In this document: one piece after another, positions 1,042 to 60,919 of the stretch
Numbering within the stretch: the stretch's first letter is position 1
How the letters are laid out: every line of letters begins with the position of its first letter
Assembly: GCA_001777915.1 (NCBI GenBank)
Contig: MFFN01000003.1
Span: 124,001 to 188,000, forward strand
Source: Candidatus Edwardsbacteria bacterium RifOxyA12_full_54_48
GTDB lineage: Bacteria > Edwardsbacteria > AC1 > EtOH8
Length of the DNA: 64,000 nt
Reading direction: 5' to 3'
Program-made: the position numbers and the translations under genes
The notes under the pieces: generated by a model
Databases searched by the model: none
The model's input: the letters and a program-made list of their open reading frames with translations, nothing else
Told to the model about the DNA's origin: nothing

Positions 1042-1743
1042 TCATTCGGCGAAGGCCTTGGCGGCGGCGCTCAAACTATCCAGCAGTTTTTGGTAAGCGG
1101 CCAGATCGGTCAATACCTTTTTCTCCCGGTAGGTGATGCCCTGATCGTCGACCCTGACCCCGGGATACTTATTATAAAGGGACAGCAATGTTTGCTGGAA
1201 CTCGGAGCGCTTTACCAGATACTTGATCTTCATCTCATCCTGGCCGGAGATGTAGACCTTGTTGTCAAGGTCGGGGTTGCCGGTGCTGATGGATTGCTTG
1301 CCGAAAATATTTTTGCCCATCTTGGAAAGGAAGTTGCCCACCACGATGTTCAACCCCATTCCCAGTGGTTGGCTGAACAGCAGCTGCACCACCGTAAAGC
1401 TCTTCTTGTCCTTCTTCTCGGTCCGGATGATGACCTTATAGCCATGGTATTTTCCGGCCACCCGCCAGGGGGAGAATCCCGACACCACCTTTTTGACCAG
1501 CCCCTGGAGGTCGATCCCGGCATCTCTGGGACGATGATAGGCGGGACGGACCGGTTTGCCCTGGCCCATGAATGACAGCGGGTCGGTCTGGCTGAACTCC
1601 AGCCCCAGCTTCAGGGCGATATCCCTCATCTTCTCTTTCTGTTTTTTCAGGCTGAAATAGCTTCCGATAAGGGCCACTGCGAATATTATCGAAAAGAGAA
1701 GAAAGGGGAACAGATCATTTATCATCCCGGGATCGATCTTCAT
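1042..1743 (-). CDS. Hypothetical membrane-anchored protein
   Basis: This 233-residue protein has one strong hydrophobic helix near residues 8-28 followed by a basic stretch and a soluble domain of about 190 residues. I do not recognise the family with certainty. The soluble part has the alternating hydrophobic pattern of a beta-rich domain (YHGYKVIIRTE, SFTVVQLLF) and a motif STGNPDLDNKVYISG that recurs in uncharacterised proteins with a single N-terminal membrane helix. It lies 12 bases downstream of rmuC and just upstream of the GT-C gene, all in one direction, so it is probably co-transcribed. No catalytic residues stand out. Confidence 0.7.
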   Translation of the reverse strand: MKIDPGMINDLFPFLLFSIIFAVALIGSYFSLKKQKEKMRDIALKLGLEFSQTDPLSFMGQGKPVRPAYHRPRDAGIDLQGLVKKVVSGFSPWRVAGKYHGYKVIIRTEKKDKKSFTVVQLLFSQPLGMGLNIVVGNFLSKMGKNIFGKQSISTGNPDLDNKVYISGQDEMKIKYLVKRSEFQQTLLSLYNKYPGVRVDDQGITYREKKVLTDLAAYQKLLDSLSAAAKAFAE

Positions 1744-1755
1744 AAACCACCTCTA

Positions 1756-2874
1756 TTAGGTTATCTCCTTGGTCTGCTCCAGATGTTTTCCCTCCACGCT
1801 CTCCAGCCGGTCCTCGAAGCGGAGCAGCCTCTTCTCGGCCTCCTCGTATTTCTTCCAGGCGTTGCCGATATGGGTGCCCACCACGTCGAACTCCCCCCGG
1901 AATTTGCCCAGGTCCCCGGCCAGTCGGGACAATGATTCGATTATCTCCTGGGCCCTCTCCTCCACCTTCATGCCCCGCAGGCCCAGGATGATGGCCTGCA
2001 GATAGGCATAGAGCGAGTTGGGCGAGACCGGGATAACTTTTTGTTCTATGGCGTAGGTGGAGATGGATTTTTCCTCGCCGAAGTTCTCGTCCTTGATGAT
2101 GGTCTCGTAATAGACGTTCTCGGCCGGGATGTACATCAGGGCGAAATCGAAGGTCCCCTCGTCCGGCAGGATGTACTTGGAGGCTATGGCGTCGGCGTGT
2201 TTCTTGACGTCGGAAACGAATTTCCGGCGCCAGGTCTTGCGCTCCTCGTCGCTCTGGGCCGCCAGCATTTTCTGAAAATTCTCCAGCGGGAACTTGGCAT
2301 CCACCGGCACCAGCTTGTCGGACAGCCTGACCACGGCGTCCACCTTCTCGCCGGAGCGGAAGGTGTACTGCAGTTCAAAATGGTGGGGCGGCAGGATCTG
2401 GGCCAACAGGTCTCCCAAGAAATATTCCCCCATCCCGCCCCGCAGCTTGGGCGACCGGAGGATATCCTGCAACGAAGAGATGTCCTTGCCCATCTCCTGC
2501 ATGGCGTCGGTGGCCTTGGAGAGCACCCCCAGCTGCTTCTGGACCTCCCCGATCACCCGGGCGGCGCTGTCCAGCCGGTCCCCCACCGTTTTGGTGTTGC
2601 CCTCCAGCCGCTGGCTGACCGATTCCATGGAGTTGCCGATCTTGCGGTCCACCTCGGCCAGCCGGGAATCCAGGGTCTGCCGGGTCTCCTGCATGCGCCC
2701 GTCCAGGGAGGTTTTGGTGTCCTGCAGCCACTGGCTCATCAGGTTGAGAGACTGGTCATTCTTGGTGGAATCCTTGAGCTCCCGCAGGGCCCGGTCGGTC
2801 CTTCTCTGCATCAGGAACATCCCCAGCCCGAATATCACAATAACAGCCGACAATAGAACATACATTACGGTCAT
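1756..2874 (-). CDS. rmuC: DNA recombination protein RmuC
   Basis: RmuC proteins limit recombination at inverted repeats and carry a nuclease-like fold. The 372 residues show an N-terminal membrane helix (residues 3-20), a long coiled coil to about residue 135, then the conserved core with RGGMGEYFLGDLLAQILP, FRSGEKVDAVVRL and LVPVDAKFPLENF. The D and K of VDAKFP match the PD-(D/E)xK-like site of the family. A second helical segment closes the protein. The start overlaps the end of the upstream patatin gene by four bases, suggesting translational coupling. Confidence 0.93.
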   Translation of the reverse strand: MTVMYVLLSAVIVIFGLGMFLMQRRTDRALRELKDSTKNDQSLNLMSQWLQDTKTSLDGRMQETRQTLDSRLAEVDRKIGNSMESVSQRLEGNTKTVGDRLDSAARVIGEVQKQLGVLSKATDAMQEMGKDISSLQDILRSPKLRGGMGEYFLGDLLAQILPPHHFELQYTFRSGEKVDAVVRLSDKLVPVDAKFPLENFQKMLAAQSDEERKTWRRKFVSDVKKHADAIASKYILPDEGTFDFALMYIPAENVYYETIIKDENFGEEKSISTYAIEQKVIPVSPNSLYAYLQAIILGLRGMKVEERAQEIIESLSRLAGDLGKFRGEFDVVGTHIGNAWKKYEEAEKRLLRFEDRLESVEGKHLEQTKEIT

Positions 2875-5021: not shown

Positions 5022-6308
5022 TTATTTGCTCAATTCCTTTACCCGTTGCTGGTATTCATGCAACGGCGCTTTTTGCAGGATCTCCCGGTACAACTGCAAG
5101 GCCTTTTCCCTTTCTCCGGCAGACCCGGTAAGAAGGTATGATTCATAATGCAGGTCGGCCTGCTGGGCCGGATCCCAGCCACCTTGGTCCAGCATTTCCT
5201 GAAGCTCCCTGCCCCCTTGGGCCTGCCCGGCCAGCCTGGCCCGCAGCTTGCGGACATTGAACTTCAGTTCCGCAACATTGACCAGTTTGACCAGTTCACT
5301 GGCCTGGCCCAGGTATCTCCCGGCGTTTTGGATATCCTTTAACGCCCAAGCCGTCTCCGTTAGCATGGTCAGAAAATAGCCTTTATAATACTTGAGGCCC
5401 AGAGTTTCGGCCGCCTCCAATGCCCGCAGATATCCTAGCTCGGCTTTACGGTAATCCCCGTTCAGGTATTCTATCTGGGCCAGCTGGCCCAGAGCCACGC
5501 AGCGGTTCTTGTTGTCACCAAAGCGGGCGGCATATTCCAGCCGGATATTTATCAGCTCCGAGGCCGGTTCGAAATCTCCCTCCTGGATCATGATCCCGGC
5601 CAGGTTGCCGGTGGTCATGGCATAGGTCTGTATGTCGCCGGTCTTTTTGGCCAGGGCCAGCCCCTCGTTAAGCAGCTGCCTGGCCGAGCTGAAATCATAA
5701 ACACCCCAGTAAGCCAGGGCCATGTTGCCCAGCAGCTGGGCCAGTTTCACTTCGTTCCCGGATTTTATATATAGCTCCCTAGTCTGCCGATGCAACCGCA
5801 AACATTCTTGGTAATCGCCCTTGTCCCAGTGCAGCATGGCCTGGTTATTGAGCGAGCGAGCCAGCTCTTCGCTGTTGCCGCTGCGCCGGGAGATCTCCAG
5901 GCTCTGGTCAAAAAAATCCCTGGCTTGGTCATACTCGCCCCGGTTGAGGTGAACGGTCCCCATGGCCGACCAGAAACTGTTGAGCCTGGCCCCATCGTTC
6001 ATTTTTTTACAACAGGCCTCTCCCCGGCCATAAAGCTCCAGGGCCTTCTGGTAATCGCCCTTTTTAAACCACAGCCAACCGGCCTCCAGCAGTGATTCCG
6101 CCAGCTCACCGCCGGGATCCGGCAGGGACTCGGACCATTGCAGGTTGGCCGTCCACAACGACAGCGAGGCATCCCACTTTCCGCCCAGCTTGAGCATGGC
6201 GGCCTTCCTAGCCATCACCTGAAAGGGGTGGTATCTTGTTTTTTCCCCGGCAACCTGCCGCTGCCATAGGATTATGCACCTGAATTTATATGCTTTGCGC
6301 AAAGGCAT
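5022..6308 (-). CDS. TPR-repeat protein
   Basis: The 428 residues are built almost entirely of tetratricopeptide repeats; the pattern (Y/W)..G.Y..A...(Y/F) recurs about every 34-40 residues from near residue 70 to 400, e.g. KKGDYQKALELYGRGEA, NRGEYDQARDFFDQSL, DKGDYQECLRLHRQ. Repeats of this longer type resemble the tetratricopeptide arrays of kinesin light chain and regulatory proteins. No signal peptide or catalytic domain is visible, so it is probably a cytoplasmic scaffold. It begins seven bases after the ruvB stop and is probably translated from the same transcript; a link to DNA repair is not shown by its sequence. Confidence 0.8.
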   Translation of the reverse strand: MPLRKAYKFRCIILWQRQVAGEKTRYHPFQVMARKAAMLKLGGKWDASLSLWTANLQWSESLPDPGGELAESLLEAGWLWFKKGDYQKALELYGRGEACCKKMNDGARLNSFWSAMGTVHLNRGEYDQARDFFDQSLEISRRSGNSEELARSLNNQAMLHWDKGDYQECLRLHRQTRELYIKSGNEVKLAQLLGNMALAYWGVYDFSSARQLLNEGLALAKKTGDIQTYAMTTGNLAGIMIQEGDFEPASELINIRLEYAARFGDNKNRCVALGQLAQIEYLNGDYRKAELGYLRALEAAETLGLKYYKGYFLTMLTETAWALKDIQNAGRYLGQASELVKLVNVAELKFNVRKLRARLAGQAQGGRELQEMLDQGGWDPAQQADLHYESYLLTGSAGEREKALQLYREILQKAPLHEYQQRVKELSK

Positions 6309-9511: not shown

Positions 9512-9898
9512 ATCTTTTAAAAATTATTTTCTCATTTTCCCTCTCCAAATTTATTTGGAGAGAGCCTGCACTGAGAAGAATTTTATTTTGCCATACGAAG
9601 TGGGCCGGGGGTGAGGTCCAATTGTCACCCATTCAACCTGCTTTGCACGCTTGGATTCTCAGGGTGACAAATTTCCCTCTCCGCATCGGGGAAGAGCCTG
9701 CACTGAGGAAGCTGTTATATGCCCCCCGAAGTGGGTTGGGGGTTAGGTCCGGGCGATTTATGGATCGCCCCTACAATATCCCTCTCCAAATTTATTTGGA
9801 GAGACTGCACTGTGGGAGGCGGATCATTATGCTTTCGAAGCGGGCCGGGGATGATGTCAAACCGTCACCCGTTCAACTTGTCCGACAGGCTTGATTTC
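9512..9898. repeat. Array of palindromic repeats between ruvA and ruvC
   Basis: No gene is seen in these 387 bases. Three related units of about 80 bases start near 9538, 9670 and 9779; each opens with CCCTCTCC and an AT or GC hairpin, passes through CTGCACTG and ends in a GTGGG(C)CGGGGGTGAGGTCC-like stretch. Between them lie two copies of the GTCACCC...GGGTGAC family (9622-9670 and 9864-9908). The array is non-coding and splits an otherwise tight ruvC-ruvA pair. Confidence 0.8.
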
Positions 9899-9950
9899 TC
9901 AGGGTGACAGTCTCCCCTTCCCGCTTCGGGAAGGGGCAGGGGTTAGGTCA
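9864..9950. repeat. Two repeats forming the 3' end of ruvC
   Basis: A GTCACCC...GGGTGAC unit (9864-9908) supplies the ruvC stop, and the hairpin CCCCTTCCCgcttCGGGAAGGGG followed by CAGGGGTTAGGTCA (9911-9950) encodes the last residues. Confidence 0.8.
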
Positions 9951-11427: not shown

Positions 11428-12615
11428 CTATGACCAGTGATCTTCCATCAAACCGGATATCGGTTCGCTTAAAAGGTCGGCGGTTCTTATTGCCGGCGGC
11501 TGCCCCCCCTCCTTGAATTTGGCCGCCAGCAGGCCGAAGGAGATCCTTTCGATCCCGGCCGCTTTCAGCCCCGCCCGGTAGATCTGATAGGTCCGCTGAA
11601 AGGTCCCATAATCCCGGGGGCCGGATTTCTGATAGGCCTCCTGCAGGGCATATTCCGCCGCTTCCTTCTCATCGCTGTGCCTGAGGATGAGATTCCGGAA
11701 ATCCTTTTCCGGCAGATATTTTCCCAGCCATAACAGGATGTCCTTATCCTCGTTGCAGCCCAGGTGCAAAGTGGTCTGGCAGATCCCGCCGTATTCCAGG
11801 TGCTCCTTGGCTCCGGCCAGAATATCTTCGACCAACTCCCGCCCGCTGATCCCGCCCTCCCGGTTCCAGGCCTTGACCAGCCCCGGTGCTGAAGGAGGAT
11901 TGGAGACTATCCGGTCGAATTTATCCTTGCCCGTCGATTGGTACAGGTCACCGCAAACGAACTCCACGTTTCCGATGCCGTTAAGCAGGGCATTGAATTT
12001 CGCCAGATCTATAGCCCGGGGGTTGATATCCACCCCGGTCACTTTTTCGGCTGATTTTGACAATATCAGCGACTGCAGGCCGGAACCGCATCCCAGGTCC
12101 AGCGCAGCCTTGCACGGAGTTCTGATCAGCCACCGCGACATGATGTTGGAGGTCTTGTCCAGCCGCCACACCAGATTGTCGGATGAAAGGTATTCATTCT
12201 TGGCGTAATCATCGACGTTCAAGAAAACCTTGTCGGTGGCTATCAATAGATCCTCGAACGGCAGCAGGGTGAAATTGGCGTGGATATCCTCCTGATCCGT
12301 TGTGCAGATTCCGAGGCTGCACAGCAATTCCAGATCGGCGGTTCCCAAAGTCTGTTCGATAATATCCTTTTTACCCGGCAATCCCAAGACGAACAGGCTG
12401 GCAAGATGATTCAAAGGAGCACCCTTCTCGGCAAGTCTCTCCACCAACAGCGGAAGAAGGCGGTATTCCAAGGGGTAGAGGTCAGGCAGACCTTCCAAGC
12501 CCAGGATTTCCTGGACCTTCCCGGCGGCCAATCCCAAAGATTTTAATTTCCGTCCCAGTTGTCCGATCCCGGCCGGATCGATGTTTTCGTATGATAAGGG
12601 TTTTTCGAGGTTCAT
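11428..12615 (-). CDS. Class I SAM-dependent methyltransferase (RsmC/PrmC-like)
   Basis: The 395 residues end in a methyltransferase domain: motif I LDLGCGSGLQSLIL, the acidic GVDINPRAIDLAKFN, and NPP in RIVSNPPSAPG, which marks enzymes that methylate an exocyclic or amide nitrogen (rRNA, tRNA or glutamine side chains). The first 150 residues form a helical N-terminal domain that probably recognises the substrate. No partner is adjacent: the kinase-DUF454 gene lies 45 bases upstream and yebC downstream on its own promoter. The exact substrate cannot be told from the sequence. Confidence 0.85.
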   Translation of the reverse strand: MNLEKPLSYENIDPAGIGQLGRKLKSLGLAAGKVQEILGLEGLPDLYPLEYRLLPLLVERLAEKGAPLNHLASLFVLGLPGKKDIIEQTLGTADLELLCSLGICTTDQEDIHANFTLLPFEDLLIATDKVFLNVDDYAKNEYLSSDNLVWRLDKTSNIMSRWLIRTPCKAALDLGCGSGLQSLILSKSAEKVTGVDINPRAIDLAKFNALLNGIGNVEFVCGDLYQSTGKDKFDRIVSNPPSAPGLVKAWNREGGISGRELVEDILAGAKEHLEYGGICQTTLHLGCNEDKDILLWLGKYLPEKDFRNLILRHSDEKEAAEYALQEAYQKSGPRDYGTFQRTYQIYRAGLKAAGIERISFGLLAAKFKEGGQPPAIRTADLLSEPISGLMEDHWS

Positions 12616-12660
12616 GGATATACCCCTGATTGGTTTTGTTGATCGAAATCATAATAGGGT

Positions 12661-13614
12661 TTATTCGGCGAGTTCGTTCCCCTTATGCTTCAGCGTCTTG
12701 AATGAGAGTATGTGCCAGGTTACCCCGGCTGCTATCAGAAACAGGATGGCTCTCACTGCCATCAGCTTGATAACAAACCAGGCCGAAAATGCTATGGTGA
12801 TCCACAAGGCCGAGACCGACAGTATTTTTAGTTTGAGCGGGATGCCCCGGCGGTCCCGGTAGTTTTTTATATAGCTCCCAAACCACCGGTTGGACATCAG
12901 CCAGTCATGGAATCTCTGTGAGCTTCTGGCGTAACATACCGCCGCCAATAAAAGGAACGGCGTGGTGGGCAGCAGCGGCAGGAATATTCCAATAACGCCC
13001 AGCCCGACAGAGACGGTGCCTGCAATCACCAAGATTATTCTCAAAAATTTGCTATCGGTTTTTTGTTTCATTACGGTGCTTTTTGAACCATATTTTTCGA
13101 TTTCACTCATCATTTTTTGGGCGATTTCTGCCGGCGAGTCCGCAGAGAATATCTTTATGTCGCCCAGTTCTTTGTATTTAGGATACCTACGATTGAATTT
13201 ATTTCTTTCCGTTTCCTCCGTATATCCCAGCCCCCGTTCAAGCTGACGTTTAACGACGATATCGGCGCTTTTCTCCAATGATTCCGAAGGAAGCAGTAAA
13301 ATTGACACCCCCTGCTCTCTCCCGGTTTTAATATGTCCTTCCGCCAGGCCTTCTCCGCTATCGTATGTAAAAAATCCCGAAGACAAGGCGAATACGCAAT
13401 CCGGGGGGATCTTTTCTAAAATTTCATAAAATAACCGGGAATTTTCCTGACAATATCTTTCGTAGCCCTGTTCATTTATATAATCATCGATATTGCCGAG
13501 TTTATTGATGTACTCCTCATCCAGATCGATGGATTCGCATCCCAGCCTATTAGCCAATAACCTGCCGCAGGTAGTTTTACCCACGCCGCCCGGGCCAATG
13601 ATAAATATTTTCAT
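12661..13614 (-). CDS. Shikimate-kinase-like P-loop domain fused to DUF454 membrane domain
   Basis: Residues 1-175 are a shikimate-kinase/AAA-like domain with Walker A GPGGVGKTT (7-15), an acidic ESIDLDEEY after strand 2, and a LID-like arginine region (RQLERGLGYTEET). Residues from about 185 to 317 match DUF454 (YbaN family): GVIGIFLPLLPTTPFLLLA, YARSSQRFHDWL and a GSYIKNYRDRRGIPLKLK turn, with three to four membrane helices. ATG 13614 is chosen because it gives the canonical kinase start and lies two bases after the upstream stop. The two halves usually occur as separate proteins. Composition is AT-richer than the surroundings. Substrate unknown. Confidence 0.82.
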   Translation of the reverse strand: MKIFIIGPGGVGKTTCGRLLANRLGCESIDLDEEYINKLGNIDDYINEQGYERYCQENSRLFYEILEKIPPDCVFALSSGFFTYDSGEGLAEGHIKTGREQGVSILLLPSESLEKSADIVVKRQLERGLGYTEETERNKFNRRYPKYKELGDIKIFSADSPAEIAQKMMSEIEKYGSKSTVMKQKTDSKFLRIILVIAGTVSVGLGVIGIFLPLLPTTPFLLLAAVCYARSSQRFHDWLMSNRWFGSYIKNYRDRRGIPLKLKILSVSALWITIAFSAWFVIKLMAVRAILFLIAAGVTWHILSFKTLKHKGNELAE

Positions 13615-13616
13615 TT

Positions 13617-14207
13617 TTATTTGATGTAACCCTTGACTATCGTATCCTCGATCAGCCCTTTGGCATAATCCCACAGTGTTTTTGAGCCTTCACCGATCCG
13701 GCTGTTTATTTCCATCACTTTACCCGCCGGCACATTATGTTCCTTCCAGGAATGACCCCGAGAACGACAATTTTGGACCACCGGGCCCAGACGATCCAAC
13801 GCCATCGCGAACTTCGCTTCCGATGTACCCTGGTTTTCGTACTCTTCCCATAAGGAGATCATTTCATCCCGTTGCTCAGGCGGCAGCAGGCCGAATATCC
13901 TTTCGGCAGCTGCTTTTTCGTTTTTGCATTTGGCTTCCTTCAAACTGTCATCATATATGAAGGTATCCCCGGCGTCTATCTCGACGATATCGTGTATCAA
14001 ACCAATTTTCATGACCTTTAGGATATCTATATCCGGATCATTGGCATGTTCCTTTAGGATCAAGGCCATCATGGCGAAGTGCCAGGAATGCTCGGCGTCA
14101 TTTTCATAACGGGAGTTGTCCAGTATTTTCGTCCGCCGAAATATGGATTTGAGCTTGTCGATCTCTATTATGAATTCTATCTGCTGTTGCAATTTGTTGT
14201 CTGCCAT
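13617..14207 (-). CDS. HD-domain phosphohydrolase (YfbR/HDDC2-like)
   Basis: A 196-residue protein with the HD metal motif: H in DAEHSWHFAMMAL, HD in GLIHDIVEIDAGD, and a later D in ALDRLGPVVQN. Proteins of this family remove phosphate from deoxynucleoside 5'-monophosphates, and that is the likeliest activity here. It is followed after two bases by the kinase-DUF454 gene, so the two are probably co-translated; both are AT-richer than cysS upstream. Confidence 0.88.
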   Translation of the reverse strand: MADNKLQQQIEFIIEIDKLKSIFRRTKILDNSRYENDAEHSWHFAMMALILKEHANDPDIDILKVMKIGLIHDIVEIDAGDTFIYDDSLKEAKCKNEKAAAERIFGLLPPEQRDEMISLWEEYENQGTSEAKFAMALDRLGPVVQNCRSRGHSWKEHNVPAGKVMEINSRIGEGSKTLWDYAKGLIEDTIVKGYIK

Positions 14208-14260: not shown

Positions 14261-15670
14261 TTATTCCCCGAACTTTTTGGGCCGAACCGTCTGTCCCTTG
14301 GGCCCATCCTCCACTACAAAGCCCAGATTCGATATCTTATTTCTCAACCGGTCGGATTCGGCCCAGTTCTTGGCCGCCCGGGCCTCCTGGCGCCTCAGGA
14401 TCAGATCCTCTATTTCGGCGGGGATGGCCGATCCTTCGGTGGTTTCTGTCAATTTCAGCCCCAAAACCCGGTCGAAATCTTTTATTAGGCCCAATTTCTG
14501 GGCTGCATCCAGGCTGTTATCTTTCAGAAGGTCCCAAAGGATGGCCAGCACCTGCGGCATATTCAGGTCGTCATTGATTGCTTCTAAGAATTTCTTTTTT
14601 CTTTTTTCCACAGTCTCCCCTCTCCCCTCGGGGGAGGGGCCGGGGGTGGGGTCAAGCCTCTTGACCTCCGATCTCAGATTCTCCAACGCCCGCTGGGCCG
14701 CGGTCAAAGATTCGTAGGTAAAGCTCAACTGCGAACGGTAGTGCCCGGTAAAGCAGAAATAACGGTAGGCCAAAGGATCGTATCCCTTGTCCATCAGGGT
14801 CTGCAGGGTAAGGAATTCCCCGGAGGACTTGGCCATCTTCTCCTGCCCCAGTTGCAGAAAATACCCGTGCAGCCAGTAATTGGCCAGGTTGGTGCCGTGG
14901 CAGGCCTGGGTCTGGGCGATCTCGTTGGTGTGATGCACCGCAATGGCGTCCTCCCCGCCGCAGTGGATGTCGAACAGCGGCCCCAGGTATTTGGCGGCCA
15001 TGGCCGAGCACTCTATATGCCAGCCGGGAAAACCCTGGCCCCATGGGCTTTCCCACTCCATCTGCCTCTTGACCCCTTCGGGACTGAACTTCCACAGGGC
15101 AAAGTCGGTGGGATGCTTCTTCTCGCCCATATCTATCCGGGCGCCGGCCAACAGGTCCTGCACCACTATATTGGTGAGGACCCCGTATTTCTTAAGCTTG
15201 GCGGTGTCAAAATATATCCCGTCAGACGTCCGGTAGGTGTAGCCCTTCTGCTCTATGCACCGGATGGTCTCGATCTGCTCCTTTATATGATCGGTGGCCT
15301 TGCACCAGATATGCGGCTCCTGGATGTTCAGGTTCCCGAGGTCGCTCTTAAAGGCTTCGGTATATTCCCCGGCGATCTCCCAGGCGGTCTTGCCGGTGCG
15401 GCGGGAGCCCTTCTCCATCTTGTCCTCGCCGGAATCGGCGTCGGATTCCAGATGCCCCACGTCGGTGATGTTCATGACATGATTGACCTGCAATCCGTTG
15501 TACTCCAGCACCCGTCGCAGAACGTCCTCGAAGACGTAGGTGCGCAGGTTGCCGATATGGGCGTGATCGTAGACCGTCGGACCGCAGGTGTACATGCCCG
15601 CCTGGCCGGGCTTTAAGGGAACGAACTCCTCCTTGGCGCGGCTCAATGTGTTGTAAAGTTTTATGGTCAT
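14261..15670 (-). CDS. cysS: Cysteinyl-tRNA synthetase
   Basis: This class I synthetase charges tRNA-Cys. Visible: zinc ligand C29 in MYTCGPTVYD, the HIGH-type motif HAHIGN, GWHIECSAMAAKYLG with further zinc ligands, HHTNEIAQTQA, and KMSKS-type KMAKSSG. The ATG at 15670 has AAGGAGG six bases upstream; TTG 15673 is rejected. The catalytic part is normal. In the linker to the helical domain, where homologues vary, 13 residues (DPTPGPSPEGRGE) are encoded by a palindromic repeat at 14615-14654 inserted in frame. The gene has a good promoter at 15693-15722 and a terminator at 14233-14254. Confidence 0.96.
   Translation of the reverse strand: MTIKLYNTLSRAKEEFVPLKPGQAGMYTCGPTVYDHAHIGNLRTYVFEDVLRRVLEYNGLQVNHVMNITDVGHLESDADSGEDKMEKGSRRTGKTAWEIAGEYTEAFKSDLGNLNIQEPHIWCKATDHIKEQIETIRCIEQKGYTYRTSDGIYFDTAKLKKYGVLTNIVVQDLLAGARIDMGEKKHPTDFALWKFSPEGVKRQMEWESPWGQGFPGWHIECSAMAAKYLGPLFDIHCGGEDAIAVHHTNEIAQTQACHGTNLANYWLHGYFLQLGQEKMAKSSGEFLTLQTLMDKGYDPLAYRYFCFTGHYRSQLSFTYESLTAAQRALENLRSEVKRLDPTPGPSPEGRGETVEKRKKKFLEAINDDLNMPQVLAILWDLLKDNSLDAAQKLGLIKDFDRVLGLKLTETTEGSAIPAEIEDLILRRQEARAAKNWAESDRLRNKISNLGFVVEDGPKGQTVRPKKFGE
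14615..14654. repeat. Palindromic repeat inside cysS, in frame
   Basis: CCCCTCTCCCCTC and GGGGGAGGGG form the hairpin, followed by CCGGGGGTGGGGTCA. It belongs to the same family as 4116-4197 and 9911-9950. Confidence 0.85.
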
Positions 15671-15692
15671 CAATTCCTCCTTGATTGGGATA

Positions 15693-56051: not shown

Positions 56052-57533
56052 CTATTGCCCGAACATTGAAAACCCGTTGGCCCCGATGGAATTGCTCAGG
56101 GCGATCATGCCCGGCTGGATCAGCTTGGCGGTGACCCAGGGGTAGAACAGGCCCACCAGCAGGCACAGGGCCGCCAGGCAGAAGGTGGCCAGGGCCATGT
56201 AGAAAGGCACTTCCTTGACCTTCTCCAAACCGGCCGCCAGCTTGCCGAAGAAGGCCTTCCGCTGCATCAGCAGGAAGTACCACAGGGTCAGGATGCTGGT
56301 GGCTATGGCGATGGCGGCCACCCCGACATGATTGGCCTCCACCAGGGCCACGATGATCAGCAGCTTGCTCCAGAAACCGTTGAAGGGCGGGATCCCGGCG
56401 ATGGAGAAGGTCCCGATGGTGGTGGTCAGGCTGGTGATGGGCATTTTATGGCCCACCCCGCCCAGCTTGGAGAGGTCCCTGGTGCCGGTGGCGTATTCGG
56501 TGGCCCCGGCGTCGAGGAACAGCAGGCTCTTGAAGGTGGCGTGGTTGAACAGGTGGAACAGGGCCCCCATGATCCCCAGCGGGGTTCCCAGCCCCAGGCC
56601 CACCACGATGTAGCCGATCTGGCTGATGGACGAATAGGCCAGCATCCGCTTGAAATCGTTCTGGCCCAGGGCGATCAGTGCGCCGATGACCATCGAGGCC
56701 ACCCCCAGCCAGATCATGGCCTGGGAGACCGAGGCCGGCAGGCCGAAGATGTCGTACACCACCCGGGTCAGGGCGTAGATGCCGGAGACCTTGATCAGCA
56801 CCCCGGACAGCATGGCCGAGATGGGCGCCGGGGCCGAGGGATGGGCATCCGGCAGCCAGGCATGGAACGGCACCATGGCCGCCTTCAGGCCGAAGCCCAT
56901 CAGGAACAGGGCCAGGCACAGGCCGATCAGCTTTAGGCTCATGCCGGTTCCCACCATCAGGCCCAGTTCCTTGAAGTTCATGGTGCCGGTCATCAGGTAG
57001 ATGAAGGACATGGCCAGCAGGATGCCGGTGGTGGCGACTACCGACAGCATCAGGTACTTGAAGGCCGCCTCCACCTCGTCGTGCTTCTGGCCGAAGGCCA
57101 CCAAAGCGTACGAGGCCACCGCCGCCACCTCCAGGAAGACGTACATGTTGAACAGATCGACGGTCAGCACCAGCCCGTTCATCCCGGCCACCATCAGCAG
57201 GAACAGGGCGTAGTACGATCCCTTGGCCCCGTAATGTTCCATGTAATTGATGGAATAGATGCAGGCGAACAGCGAGATCAGGCTGATGGTCAAAAGCAGC
57301 AGCAGCGAGAAGCCGTCCAGCATCAGGCCGGCCTTGAGGGGCAGGCCGATGGCCGCGGCATCCCACAGGATGCGGTGCCCGGCCGATATCAGGCGAATCT
57401 GGGACAGGCTCAGGGCCAGCAGGGCCGCCATGGTGAGCGTGCCCAGGATGTCGGGCAGTCCTTTCCACAGCCTGGAGACCAGCGGCATCAGGGCTGCCAT
57501 GGCCAGGGGTATGACTATGAATAAAAGCAACAT
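56052..57533 (-). CDS. NuoN-like antiporter subunit
   Basis: A 493-residue protein with about 14 helices of the NuoL/M/N-Mrp family. Key residues: Glu in YVFLEVAAVASYAL (TM5), Lys in GFGLKAAMVPFHAWLPDAHPSAP (TM7), and Lys in SGVLIKVSGIYAL (TM8). It moves protons or sodium in step with the electron transfer. Confidence 0.93.
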   Translation of the reverse strand: MLLLFIVIPLAMAALMPLVSRLWKGLPDILGTLTMAALLALSLSQIRLISAGHRILWDAAAIGLPLKAGLMLDGFSLLLLLTISLISLFACIYSINYMEHYGAKGSYYALFLLMVAGMNGLVLTVDLFNMYVFLEVAAVASYALVAFGQKHDEVEAAFKYLMLSVVATTGILLAMSFIYLMTGTMNFKELGLMVGTGMSLKLIGLCLALFLMGFGLKAAMVPFHAWLPDAHPSAPAPISAMLSGVLIKVSGIYALTRVVYDIFGLPASVSQAMIWLGVASMVIGALIALGQNDFKRMLAYSSISQIGYIVVGLGLGTPLGIMGALFHLFNHATFKSLLFLDAGATEYATGTRDLSKLGGVGHKMPITSLTTTIGTFSIAGIPPFNGFWSKLLIIVALVEANHVGVAAIAIATSILTLWYFLLMQRKAFFGKLAAGLEKVKEVPFYMALATFCLAALCLLVGLFYPWVTAKLIQPGMIALSNSIGANGFSMFGQ

Positions 57534-57572
57534 GTTTACAAGCTCCGCTATATTATATCAGTTGACGTATTT

Positions 57573-59453
57573 TTACTTGACCAGGACCGCCAGGTACAGC
57601 ACCAGCAGGGCGAATCCGCCCACCACCCAGGCCAGATAATTGGCATACAGCCCGTTGTGGTATTCCTTGAGCACCCCGGTGGCCACCCCGCCGACGAATA
57701 CGATCAGCCTCTCGTAGACGGCGTCGATCCCGCGGTCCACCACCTTGAACACCGTCCAGGCGGCGCCTTTGAGCAGGCCGTTCACGAACCACTCGTAGAT
57801 GTCGAACACCCGGGCCTCGGCCCAGTCATACAATGTATGCATCACCGGCAGGTTGTGAATGGGCTCGGAAGCCAGGTAGGCCTGGCCCTGGCCCTTCTTG
57901 ACGCCGTATTTATGAAGCAGGAAGGCTATCACCAGGCAGGCCATGGAGACCCACACGATCCAGTTGAGGTGGAATGTCCAGAACTCCATATGCCCGGCGT
58001 GGCCCTCCAGGATGGCCCTTCCCTCCAGCACCGGCTGGATCAGGTATTTTAACGGCAGCTTGCTGTAGACCCCGAACAGGATGCAGCCCAGGGCGATCAC
58101 CAGCATGGGAACGGTCATGGCTAGTCCGGGATCCTTGGGAGCCTTGTTGGGCATCTCGGGACTCTGCTGTCCGAAATAGGTGGCATGGCCCAGCTTTAAG
58201 AACGAAGCAAAGGTGAAGATGGCCCCGATCCAGGCGGCGATGGGAAATATCATGATGCCGGTCTCCACCGCCCCGTGGAACACCAGCTCCTTGGAGACGA
58301 ACCCGTTGAAGGGCGGCACGCCGGAGATGGCGAAGGCCGCCACCCAGAAGGCCACCCCGGTGATGGGCATCAATTTGAAAAGCCCGCCCAGTTTTTTCAG
58401 CTCGGTGGTGCCGGCCTGCTTCTCCACCGCCCCGCCGGTCAGGAACAGGGTGCACTTGTACATGGCGTGGTTGAGCATGTGGAACAGCCCGCCCACGATC
58501 CCGGCCGGCACCCCGGTGCCGATGCCCAGGATCATATAGCCCACCTGGCTGATGGCGTGGAACGACAGCAGTTTCTTGTAATCCTTCTGGACCAGGGCCA
58601 TCATCACCGCCAGAACGATGGTGACGGCGCCGATGGTCATCAAAAAGATGGACATGGTGCTGTTCATGTGGATGGTGAACATCTCAAGGCTGATCCGGCC
58701 CAGCATGTAGATGCCCAGCAGTTTCTCCAGGGCCGCCGGCAGGTAGGCCATGAACGGCAACGGGGCGTCGATGGCGGCATCCGGGATCCAGGTGTGGAAC
58801 GGCATGGCGCCGGCCTTGGCCATGGCCCCCAGGCCCATCAGCACGAAGGCGGCCGCCCCCAGGCCCATCGGCTCCAGGTGGATCTCGGACATGGTCAGGG
58901 TGCCGGACAGCTGCCAGGCGAAGATGATGCCCAGGATCATGGCGAAATCGGCGATGCCGGAGATCACCAAAGCCTTGGTGGCGGTCTTGAAGGCCTCCTT
59001 GTTGCCCACCGAGATCATGCCGTACAGGGTGGCCAGCAGCGACTCCCAGAAGAACAACATCACCACGAAGTTGTTGGCCAGGATGGCCCCGTTGGCCAGT
59101 CCGGCGGTCAGCAGAAAGTAGGCGAAATATTCCTTGGAGCGGTTCTTCCCCTCCATGAAGGAGGCGGTGTACAGGGCCAGCAGGATCTCGAAGCCGGCCG
59201 CCGCCAAAAGGATGAAGCGCGGGAAATGGTAGGCCCACAGATCGAAGTTTATCCCAAAGCTGGTCCAGGGCACGAATAATCTTAAACCTTCTCCCCCGGC
59301 CTTGAAGATGACCGCCGCGTAATACATGGTGATGGCGGTGGCGATCAGGGCCAGGATCTCCTTGCCCCATTTGACGGACTTGGGCAGGATGAAGGTCAGC
59401 ACCCCGGCGATGATGGGGACCAGGATCGGTATCAGCAGAATGTTCGGATTCAT
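57573..59453 (-). CDS. NuoL-like antiporter subunit with C-terminal extension
   Basis: The 626 residues include the antiporter core (Glu in VMLFFWESLLATLYGM, Lys in GAMAKAGAMPFHTWIPDAAIDAP, Lys in LPAALEKLLGIYML) and about 120 extra residues at the end with amphipathic and hydrophobic helices, which could serve as the lateral helix of complex I NuoL. It overlaps the next upstream gene by four bases. Confidence 0.92.
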   Translation of the reverse strand: MNPNILLIPILVPIIAGVLTFILPKSVKWGKEILALIATAITMYYAAVIFKAGGEGLRLFVPWTSFGINFDLWAYHFPRFILLAAAGFEILLALYTASFMEGKNRSKEYFAYFLLTAGLANGAILANNFVVMLFFWESLLATLYGMISVGNKEAFKTATKALVISGIADFAMILGIIFAWQLSGTLTMSEIHLEPMGLGAAAFVLMGLGAMAKAGAMPFHTWIPDAAIDAPLPFMAYLPAALEKLLGIYMLGRISLEMFTIHMNSTMSIFLMTIGAVTIVLAVMMALVQKDYKKLLSFHAISQVGYMILGIGTGVPAGIVGGLFHMLNHAMYKCTLFLTGGAVEKQAGTTELKKLGGLFKLMPITGVAFWVAAFAISGVPPFNGFVSKELVFHGAVETGIMIFPIAAWIGAIFTFASFLKLGHATYFGQQSPEMPNKAPKDPGLAMTVPMLVIALGCILFGVYSKLPLKYLIQPVLEGRAILEGHAGHMEFWTFHLNWIVWVSMACLVIAFLLHKYGVKKGQGQAYLASEPIHNLPVMHTLYDWAEARVFDIYEWFVNGLLKGAAWTVFKVVDRGIDAVYERLIVFVGGVATGVLKEYHNGLYANYLAWVVGGFALLVLYLAVLVK

Positions 59454-60919
59454 CTCAATACCCCCAATATATCATGAATGGCAGGATTTCCCAGAACGTC
59501 GCGGACGGCGATGTTGACCAGGTCCATGGGGTACTTGACCAGGATCCCGGCGGCCAGCGAAAGGACGGCCAGCGAGGCCACCACCCACACCATGGTCGGA
59601 GTCCCCTCTTTATGGGCATGGATGCTGTGGTCCCGGGCCTCGCCCAGAAAGACCAGGGTGAACAGCCGCATCAGATAGACCAGGGTCAGCACCGCGGTGA
59701 AGATGGCCAGGGCGCCGATGGCGATGTGGTTGGACTTGATGATGCCCTGGATCACCATGAATTTGGAGAAGAAGCCTCCGAAGGGCGGCACCCCCACGAT
59801 GGAGAAGACGCACATGATGAAGGCCACCGCGGTGATGGGCATGGCCTTGATCAGCCCGCCCATCTTGGTGATGTCCTTGGTGCCGGTGCCGTGCTCGATG
59901 ACCCCGGCGGCCAAAAAGAGGCCGCCCTTGGCCAGCCCGTGCATCAGGATGAACAGCAGGGCCCCGGCCACCCCGATGGTGTTGAAGGCCGCCAGGCCCA
60001 TGAAGATGTAGCCGATCTGGCTGACGGTGGACAGGGCCAGGATCCTCTTGATGTTGGTTTCTATCAGGGCCGCGCTGGCCGAGACCATGGCCGAGATCAG
60101 GCCCAGGATCATCAGGTAGGTCTGCCAGTCGCCGGGGATGACGAAGGTGTAGTTGAATATCCGGGCGAAGGCGTAGACCCCGATCTTGACCAGCACCGCG
60201 GCGTGGAGCAGGGCGGTCACCGGGGTGGGCGCCACGCCGGCGTCAGGCAGCCAGGTGTGGAACGGCAGAGTGGCGCTCTTGGCGAAGATGCCCATGGTGA
60301 TCAGGGCCACCGCCAGGCCGCCGATGGGGAAGCCCCGCATATCCAGCATGTTGAAGGTACCGGTCTTGGCGTAGACCAGGGCGAAACCCAGCAGCATGAA
60401 CACCGCCCCCCCGGCCGTGACCAAAAAGGCCTTGTCGGCCTTGATCACCACTTCCCTGTCGCGGAAGAAGCCGATCAGGCGCCAGGAGCAGATGCCGGTG
60501 ATCTCCCAGAAGACGTACATCAGGATCATGTTGGCCGAGAACACCAGGCCCATCATGGCCCCCAAAAACAAAACCACCATCAGAAAGTATTCCTGCTGAT
60601 AGTGGTAATCCTTGATATAACCCAGCGAGTAGATGATGATCAGGGTGCTGATCAGGGACGAGGCGATGGCCATGAAGACCGACAGCCCGTCCACCACGAA
60701 GGTGGCATCCACTCCCAGACCGATGGCCCGCTGGAAGACGTGGGTCTCCCCCGAGAAGGCCGCCGGCAATAGTGTGACGGCAAAAAAAGTAGTGGCCAGC
60801 CCCAGAATCACCGCCCAGGCATTGCGCCCTGGCTTGGAGGCCAGCCCTATCAAAGGCAAGGTAAAGGCCCCGATGATAGGGACCAGTATCGTTGCCAGCA
60901 AAGAGAATTCCCACCCCAT
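59450..60919 (-). CDS. NuoM/MrpD-like antiporter subunit, first gene of the hydrogenase operon
   Basis: A 489-residue antiporter-like subunit: Glu in LMYVFWEITGICSWRLIGFF, Lys in GIFAKSATLPFHTWLPDAGVAPTP and Lys in AAVLVKIGVYAFAR. It begins the transcript; TAGGAG stands five bases before the ATG. Upstream lies a structured, possibly mobile element (60937-61116). Confidence 0.93.
   Translation of the reverse strand: MGWEFSLLATILVPIIGAFTLPLIGLASKPGRNAWAVILGLATTFFAVTLLPAAFSGETHVFQRAIGLGVDATFVVDGLSVFMAIASSLISTLIIIYSLGYIKDYHYQQEYFLMVVLFLGAMMGLVFSANMILMYVFWEITGICSWRLIGFFRDREVVIKADKAFLVTAGGAVFMLLGFALVYAKTGTFNMLDMRGFPIGGLAVALITMGIFAKSATLPFHTWLPDAGVAPTPVTALLHAAVLVKIGVYAFARIFNYTFVIPGDWQTYLMILGLISAMVSASAALIETNIKRILALSTVSQIGYIFMGLAAFNTIGVAGALLFILMHGLAKGGLFLAAGVIEHGTGTKDITKMGGLIKAMPITAVAFIMCVFSIVGVPPFGGFFSKFMVIQGIIKSNHIAIGALAIFTAVLTLVYLMRLFTLVFLGEARDHSIHAHKEGTPTMVWVVASLAVLSLAAGILVKYPMDLVNIAVRDVLGNPAIHDILGVLR

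Follow-up and report, generated by a model that had tools for sequence, protein, structure and literature searches.

The window, the whole stretch of 64,000 nucleotides that was analyzed, contains on its reverse strand a single frame of 317 codons that joins a domain of the shikimate kinase fold to a DUF454 domain (Table 1). The frame opens with ATG at 13614 and is read through to its end without an interrupting stop. This ATG has a positional counterpart, also ATG, in the orthologues of two further species (G002/L002 and G003/L003). An alternative start, GTG at 13674, lies within the HD gene and would give a protein of 337 aa.

Table 1. Genes and features at the locus of the fusion gene
Feature	Coordinates	Strand	Basis or remark
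cysS (cysteinyl-tRNA synthetase)	14261..15673	(-)	upstream anchor of the locus
HD_3 family hydrolase gene, 196 aa	13617..14207	(-)	upstream, same strand, two bases from the fusion ATG
Fusion gene, 317 aa, shikimate-kinase-fold domain + DUF454	12661..13614	(-)	ORF, Pfam, orthologues G002/L002 and G003/L003
Kinase half, residues 1-182	13069..13614	(-)	residue 182 is the Met matching the start of stand-alone DUF454
Junction TCAAAAAGCACCGTAATG, internal in-frame ATG	13069..13086	(-)	TAATG stop/start overlap in the +1 frame after a five-A run
DUF454 half, residues 183-317	12661..13068	(-)	positively charged loop (230-257) between two hydrophobic stretches (188-229 and 258-308)
SAM-dependent methyltransferase gene	11428..12615	(-)	downstream anchor of the locus

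Analysis with Pfam assigned residues 10-172 of the protein to SKI (PF01202, E = 3.7e-15), with model positions 2-158 of 159 matched and a score of 56.8 bits against a gathering cut-off of 22.1. Residues 192-307 were assigned to DUF454 (PF04304, E = 3.7e-41; 140.2 bits against a cut-off of 35.1), with the model matched completely (1-115 of 115). The Walker A motif, GPGGVGKTT, is intact. The upstream gene is a full-length member of the HD_3 family (PF13023, E = 2.1e-50; 171.3 bits against 22.5; model positions 1-165 of 165). Thus, the original prediction of an in-frame kinase-DUF454 fusion with an intact Walker A, preceded at two bases by an HD gene, was correct in both respects. What is new and interesting is the arrangement of the two domains in one protein. 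AlphaFold2 models of the three fusion proteins available had a mean pLDDT of 46.8 and a pTM of 0.27, which makes them untrustworthy.

Two sets of repeats were also observed elsewhere in the window. Positions 9533-9937, in and next to the ruvA-ruvC interval, contain direct repeats with 102-nt copies 240 bases apart at 75%, as well as two 31-nt copies with the palindrome CTCCAAATTTATTTGGAG. At positions 56594-60304 there are diverged direct repeats of two families, with three copies each (79 and 67 nt) spaced approximately 1.5-1.9 kb apart; these are probably paralogous genes in a row.

Conservation of the fused frame

The fusion is intact in three of the four genomes of the genus, which were assembled separately and have one junction in common. 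A protein search of 98 genomes gave matches in 36 at E <= 0.001, with full-length cover in only three, all from this one genus: the genome of the window (G000), G002 (87-88% amino acid identity) and G003 (79-80%). A contig scan identified two relatives among 113 candidate stretches, and these proved to be the same G002 and G003 contigs (L002 and L003), so that the fusion-bearing genomes number three in total. No fusion was found outside the genus, either among the 98 genomes by protein search or among plasmid records, where 62 records matched the full-length fusion and none reached 80% query cover. The literature matches listed for a shikimate kinase/DUF fusion held nothing relevant. The expectation that the fusion would turn up in other genomes was thus borne out for two further species, in which the frame is unsplit, and for no species beyond the genus.

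At the junction, the DNA of the five-A run and the in-frame ATG is identical in all three genomes. Deleting one A of the run in silico gives a kinase of 180 aa that ends in a TAATG overlap. Among the three fusion species, pairwise dN/dS was 0.14-0.17 in the DUF454 half and 0.20-0.21 in the kinase half; for comparison, cysS gave 0.08-0.12 and the HD gene 0.07-0.14. These values indicate that the fused frame is under purifying selection. From its recurrence in three species, the common junction and dN/dS values of 0.14-0.21 for the two halves, we conclude that the fused frame is real and maintained.

An accidental read-through would explain the same frame differently: one change removed the stop of the kinase gene, and the cell tolerates a protein whose two halves function separately and whose tether is meaningless. 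Consistent with this, the end of the kinase meets the start of DUF454, and the fusion has an ATG at the position that corresponds to the start of the stand-alone protein; a single A separates the frame from the 180-aa kinase with its TAATG overlap, and the six members of the kinase subfamily found outside the genus are all stand-alone. However, the fused frame has been kept in three species at 79-87% identity and at the dN/dS values given above, which is time enough for stops or frameshifts to have accumulated if the join were harmful or neutral. We therefore consider a mere read-through somewhat unlikely. The internal ATG might allow DUF454 to be made alone as well. A programmed +1 frameshift at the A run, yielding separate products, was considered and set aside, as nothing beyond the run itself speaks for it; five As are few for a programmed frameshift.

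The HD gene and the history of the locus

The HD gene lies one or two bases upstream of the fusion, on the same strand, in all three kinase-bearing genomes of the genus. At E <= 1e-8 it was identified in four of 21 genomes, namely the three kinase carriers and G009, whose match is only 30% identical; this remote match was the only one among the other seven genomes of the family. A YfbR-like match of the HD gene (E = 2.8e-13) was weaker than that to HD_3, and the score against the equivalog model of the YfbR 5'-deoxynucleotidase (NF003009) was 35.9 bits, as compared to a cut-off of 122.

The original prediction had suggested that the two enzymes form a phosphorylation-dephosphorylation pair on a small molecule. 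In its sharpest form, the HD hydrolase, as a relative of the YfbR-type 5'-deoxynucleotidases, and the kinase would work in opposite directions on a nucleotide or nucleoside at the membrane. The adjacency of the genes in three of three carriers, their near-absence from the rest of the family and the YfbR-like match all agree with such a pair. Against it, the YfbR equivalog cut-off is missed, and searches by tblastn near the six stand-alone kinase loci (Salmonella, Klebsiella, Burkholderia, Methylorubrum, G744 and G634) revealed no HD relative. Nor, among the proteins with an annotated function, was a kinase present within 3.5 kb of the HD relative at three plasmid loci from the 53 matching records. 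Thus, the co-inheritance of HD and kinase genes was observed within this genus only, and such neighboring genes did not appear at the loci searched outside it. In addition, the dS between the window and L002 is 0.52 for the HD gene and 0.13 for the kinase half, showing that the two were not inherited as one tract throughout. We regard an opposing pair acting on a nucleotide or nucleoside as unlikely, and a kinase/phosphatase cycle of the two enzymes in more general terms as possible.

The fourth genome of the genus, the sister species G001, is rated 99% complete and gave neither a kinase nor an HD gene in a genome-wide search. Its cysS ends approximately 110 bases before the end of contig C5, and these bases hold no HD gene. 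They contain a frame, MMQKIIKKPLRIILVISGTLF, that aligns with residues 182-202 of the fusion (MKQKTDSKFLRIILVIAGTVS in the window), and contig C39 picks up at DUF454 residue 208 and runs to the end of the domain. The ends of C5 and C39 share no overlap, so that the stand-alone DUF454 rests on the inferred linkage of these ends; with this linkage, G001 very likely has a DUF454 protein that starts at the equivalent of the internal Met182 of the fusion. In G005 and G007, which represent two other genera, the methyltransferase gene directly follows cysS.

According to one account, a pair of HD and kinase genes was inserted between cysS and DUF454, after which kinase and DUF454 were joined end to start. 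The fusion protein would then exist because the HD and kinase genes came to abut DUF454 from directly upstream and the kinase lost its stop, although the order of these events may have differed. Phylogenetic trees of cysS, the methyltransferase gene and yebC placed G001 beside G003 when built from DNA (support 93) and grouped it with G002 and G003 when built from protein (support 86); the remaining branches had supports of 53 and 32. The grouping in the DNA tree would favor a loss in G001 or a transfer over a single gain. In GC content, the kinase half, at 43.6% in the window and 41-44% across species, lies below cysS (56-57%) and the window as a whole (54.7%). Its neighbors are low as well, with 47% in the HD gene and 43-50% in the DUF454 half, which makes the low GC a property of the interval rather than of the kinase.

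Between the window and L002, dS was 0.13 for the kinase half, 0.36 for yebC, 0.46 for cysS, 0.52 for the HD gene, 0.80 for the DUF454 half and 0.85 for the methyltransferase gene. A sliding comparison of the two sequences showed 98-100% identity over approximately 270 bases (13026-13295) that cover the end of the kinase and the start of DUF454, and a drop to 62-80% over the end of DUF454. The nearly identical tract and the low dS of the kinase are likely to reflect recombination between the two species, although one 90-base window in cysS is also 98% identical and the effect is smaller in the comparison with L003. The low dS of the kinase could also be read as extra constraint; in view of the tract over the junction, this reading was set aside.

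The interval between cysS and the methyltransferase gene is a variable spot. A gene for an APH/choline-kinase-like phosphotransferase follows the fusion in L002 (5941-6813) and L003 (5941-6810) and is absent from the window (12615-12661). One further gene, unmatched in Pfam, is present in L003, and two other genes occupy the interval in G001.

Active site of the kinase half

Searches for the kinase subfamily suggest that it is rare and patchy in its distribution, given how few genomes and plasmids matched. Among 386 diverse genomes, with at most eight candidates scored per genome, the subfamily profile matched six at E <= 1e-12. The three fusion genomes scored approximately 300 bits and three other genomes 49-59 bits; of the latter, the protein of G021 is by sequence a canonical shikimate kinase with the GGG motif, and those of G155 and G315 are only 34% and 25% identical. 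Among 398 Pseudomonadota genomes, again with no more than eight candidates scored in each, two genomes of one genus matched at E ~1e-52, both with stand-alone proteins. G154 was assigned to the Pseudomonadota from its RpoB, which matches that of E. coli over 299 residues at 77% identity. The kinase half matched 16 plasmid records at E <= 1e-3, with a top identity of 44%. Viral contigs contained no relative of the kinase alignment, as searched with one peptide pattern, and none of DUF454; the DNA of the Salmonella plasmid kinase gene was unmatched in the E. coli genomes. Five phage records matched the kinase domain (E = 3e-4 to 1e-3), and PHROGs yielded weak matches at most.

Among PDB sequences, entries for shikimate kinase matched at E = 4.7e-8 to 2e-3. 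The two designed TIM barrels that ranked above them did so by virtue of repeated short stretches, each of E >6, and were discarded. A match to VakA in a defense library (E = 3e-6 for the fusion and 4e-4 for the Salmonella plasmid kinase) was read as a generic match between P-loop kinases.

To compare active sites, nine members of the subfamily were aligned with nine AroK/AroL comparators; a tenth sequence, L024, was dropped because of a wrongly picked frame. The kinase of the window has retained Asp32, Arg127 and Arg143 in addition to Walker A, and the latter motif and the equivalents of Asp34, Arg117 and Arg136 are present in all nine subfamily members. In the window, Arg58 is replaced by Cys55, Glu61 by Asn58 and GGG by SSGF. 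The substitutions recur across the subfamily: the Arg58 column reads C, C, S, L, L, A, K, V and V, as compared to Arg in 9/9 comparators, and the GGG columns, GGG in 9/9 comparators, begin with S, S and read SSG followed by F in 9/9 members. The column of Glu61, which we take to be part of the shikimate site, is Asn in all nine members and Glu in all nine comparators. A residue table of shikimate sites comprises Arg58, Gly79-81, Asp34, Arg117 and Arg136 (PMC2593004), and for the enzyme of M. tuberculosis, Arg58 and Arg136 are described as associated with the shikimate carboxyl group (PMC3646032). The subfamily thus has the Asp34/Arg117/Arg136 set and lacks Arg58 and Gly79-81.

Chorismate synthase (PF01264) was not found in any of ten genomes (G000-G006 and G010-G012, seven of them from the family and G010 only 59% complete), with 14 of 14 controls positive. 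This result suggests that the family is unable to make chorismate by the usual route. Scores of the fusion against the NCBIfam models of AroK and AroL were 29.9-32.8 bits, as compared to cut-offs of 161-195, and against the SKI-type homoserine kinase NF040667 29.7 bits, as compared to 197. Given that chorismate synthase was not found in the seven family genomes tested, the host included, and that Arg58 and GGG are lost, the kinase very probably does not act on shikimate. The "shikimate-kinase-like" label of the original prediction therefore holds for the fold and should not be extended to the function.

That the protein is nevertheless the organism's own shikimate kinase, relocated to the membrane, is very improbable. 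In its favor, SKI is the top full Pfam match of the N-terminal half, and the genome, with a completeness rating of 100%, has no other SKI protein above the cut-off, which is what would be expected of a genuine AroK. The detection of chorismate synthase in 0/7 family genomes tested against 14/14 controls, the loss of Arg58 and GGG in 9/9 members and the low AroK/AroL scores argue against it. Least credible of all is a sequencing or assembly error that fused two genes by one base in the A run, as the same five-A run and open frame occur in three separately assembled species, even though one base fewer would bring back the stop.

Two plasmid proteins annotated as "shikimate kinase", from Salmonella (L041, 7989-8531) and Klebsiella (L042, 7989-8543), were also observed to lack Arg58 and GGG, and judging from these residues the name is probably wrong. 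Downstream of the kinase at L057 lies a GNAT gene whose product is 39% identical over 131 residues to the DUF454-fused GNAT of G006 (see below). A linked set of kinase and GNAT was not upheld: no GNAT follows the kinase in L058, which is from the same genus as L057, and the GNAT of the Klebsiella plasmid aligns over 23-46 residues only.

The DUF454 half and comparison with known systems

Taking together the conserved fusion, the DUF454 without a kinase in the sister species, the missing chorismate synthase and the altered active site, we propose, with a probability of roughly 60%, that the fusion is a small-molecule kinase with a substrate other than shikimate, held at the inner membrane by DUF454. 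The N-terminal half would belong to a rare subfamily of shikimate-kinase-like P-loop kinases and use ATP to phosphorylate a hydroxyl of another small metabolite. The C-terminal half, a whole DUF454 protein, would anchor the kinase to the inner membrane on its cytoplasmic side, and the HD enzyme may take part in the same process.

Hydropathy and charge are consistent with such an anchor. The two hydrophobic stretches of the DUF454 half are each long enough for a hairpin and flank a loop rich in Lys and Arg, and E. coli YbaN follows the same plan. By the positive-inside rule, both the N and the C terminus of DUF454 should be on the cytoplasmic side. The same placement is argued for by the kinase, which needs ATP at the N terminus, and by a GNAT acetyltransferase fused to the C terminus of DUF454 in the sister genus g4. 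The latter protein, one frame of 285 aa, was found at 1042-1899 (-) of L008 (G008) and at 5401-6258 (-) of L059 (G006), with the GNAT in the protein of G006 assigned by Pfam; in G009, the remaining g4 genome, the protein search gave no DUF454 match. These proteins suggest that DUF454 can anchor enzymes at either end.

Reports on DUF454 genes point in several places to iron. Lists of Fur regulons include ybaN of E. coli (PMC7157518, PMC10164565), iron restriction is reported to induce a DUF454 gene in Avibacterium (PMC7970244), and in Salmonella screens ybaN is grouped with iron acquisition or with oxidative stress (PMC11267905, PMC12440568). An iron-metabolism table includes a DUF454 protein (PMC13167830), and a ybaN mutant is named among the E. 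coli diets that extend worm lifespan (PMC12706066). At four of the 11 DUF454 loci displayed, we observed neighbors of an iron or redox type, picked by eye and with no background count: a Fur-family regulator (G054), catalases (G073 and G005), a ZIP transporter (G073) and a disulfide oxidoreductase (G062). Neither these loci nor the excerpts of the ybaN literature consulted linked DUF454 to a kinase or an HD protein. A broader reading would make DUF454 a cytoplasm-facing membrane platform for one class of metabolite, perhaps linked to iron or redox stress, that recruits modifying enzymes, with the kinase N-terminal here and the GNAT C-terminal in the sister genus. We consider this reading distinctly unlikely; if true, the kinase subfamily would offer a first enzymatic way to learn what is bound or moved by DUF454/YbaN.

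For the membrane-tethered kinase proposed here, the conserved fusion constrains both halves: the kinase would act beside the membrane, and the two ends of DUF454 should lie on the cytoplasmic side. The substrate of the kinase would make the vague link between DUF454 and iron testable. A fused kinase had been put forward in the original prediction as a clue to the function of DUF454. The fusion on which this idea was built is real; as a general clue it is weak, since it was seen in one uncultured genus only, with a DUF454 lacking the kinase at the same place in the sister species, and it is no proof of a role for DUF454.

The kinase half resembles the SKI family enzymes AroK and AroL in its P-loop fold, Walker A motif and equivalents of Asp34, Arg117 and Arg136, and differs from them in the loss of Arg58, in Asn for Glu61 and SSG-F for GGG, and in a host in which chorismate synthase was not found. 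Shikimate-kinase-like proteins without shikimate kinase activity have been described from plants (PMC2593004), and a SKI-like homoserine kinase of Desulfovibrio (NF040667; PMC5764234) is reported as a precedent within the family for another hydroxyl substrate, although the fusion kinase is not a member of that group. The kinase half is also comparable to the plasmid proteins WP_168445559.1 of Salmonella and WP_186516283.1 of Klebsiella, which belong to the same subfamily (44% and 41% identity) and have the same changed active site. Unlike the fusion, these are stand-alone and plasmid-borne, and a DUF454 or HD relative is absent within 8 kb on each side.

The DUF454 half is comparable to E. coli YbaN (PF04304, NF007818), with a complete domain and 40% identity over 129 residues. 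YbaN, in contrast, is a stand-alone protein of 125 aa encoded upstream of apt, and the fusion scored 104.3 bits against the YbaN equivalog model, below its cut-off of 163. The DUF454-GNAT proteins of G006 and G008 share with the fusion the joining of DUF454 to a small-molecule enzyme, whereas they carry an acetyltransferase at the C terminus instead of a kinase at the N terminus and are encoded at another locus.
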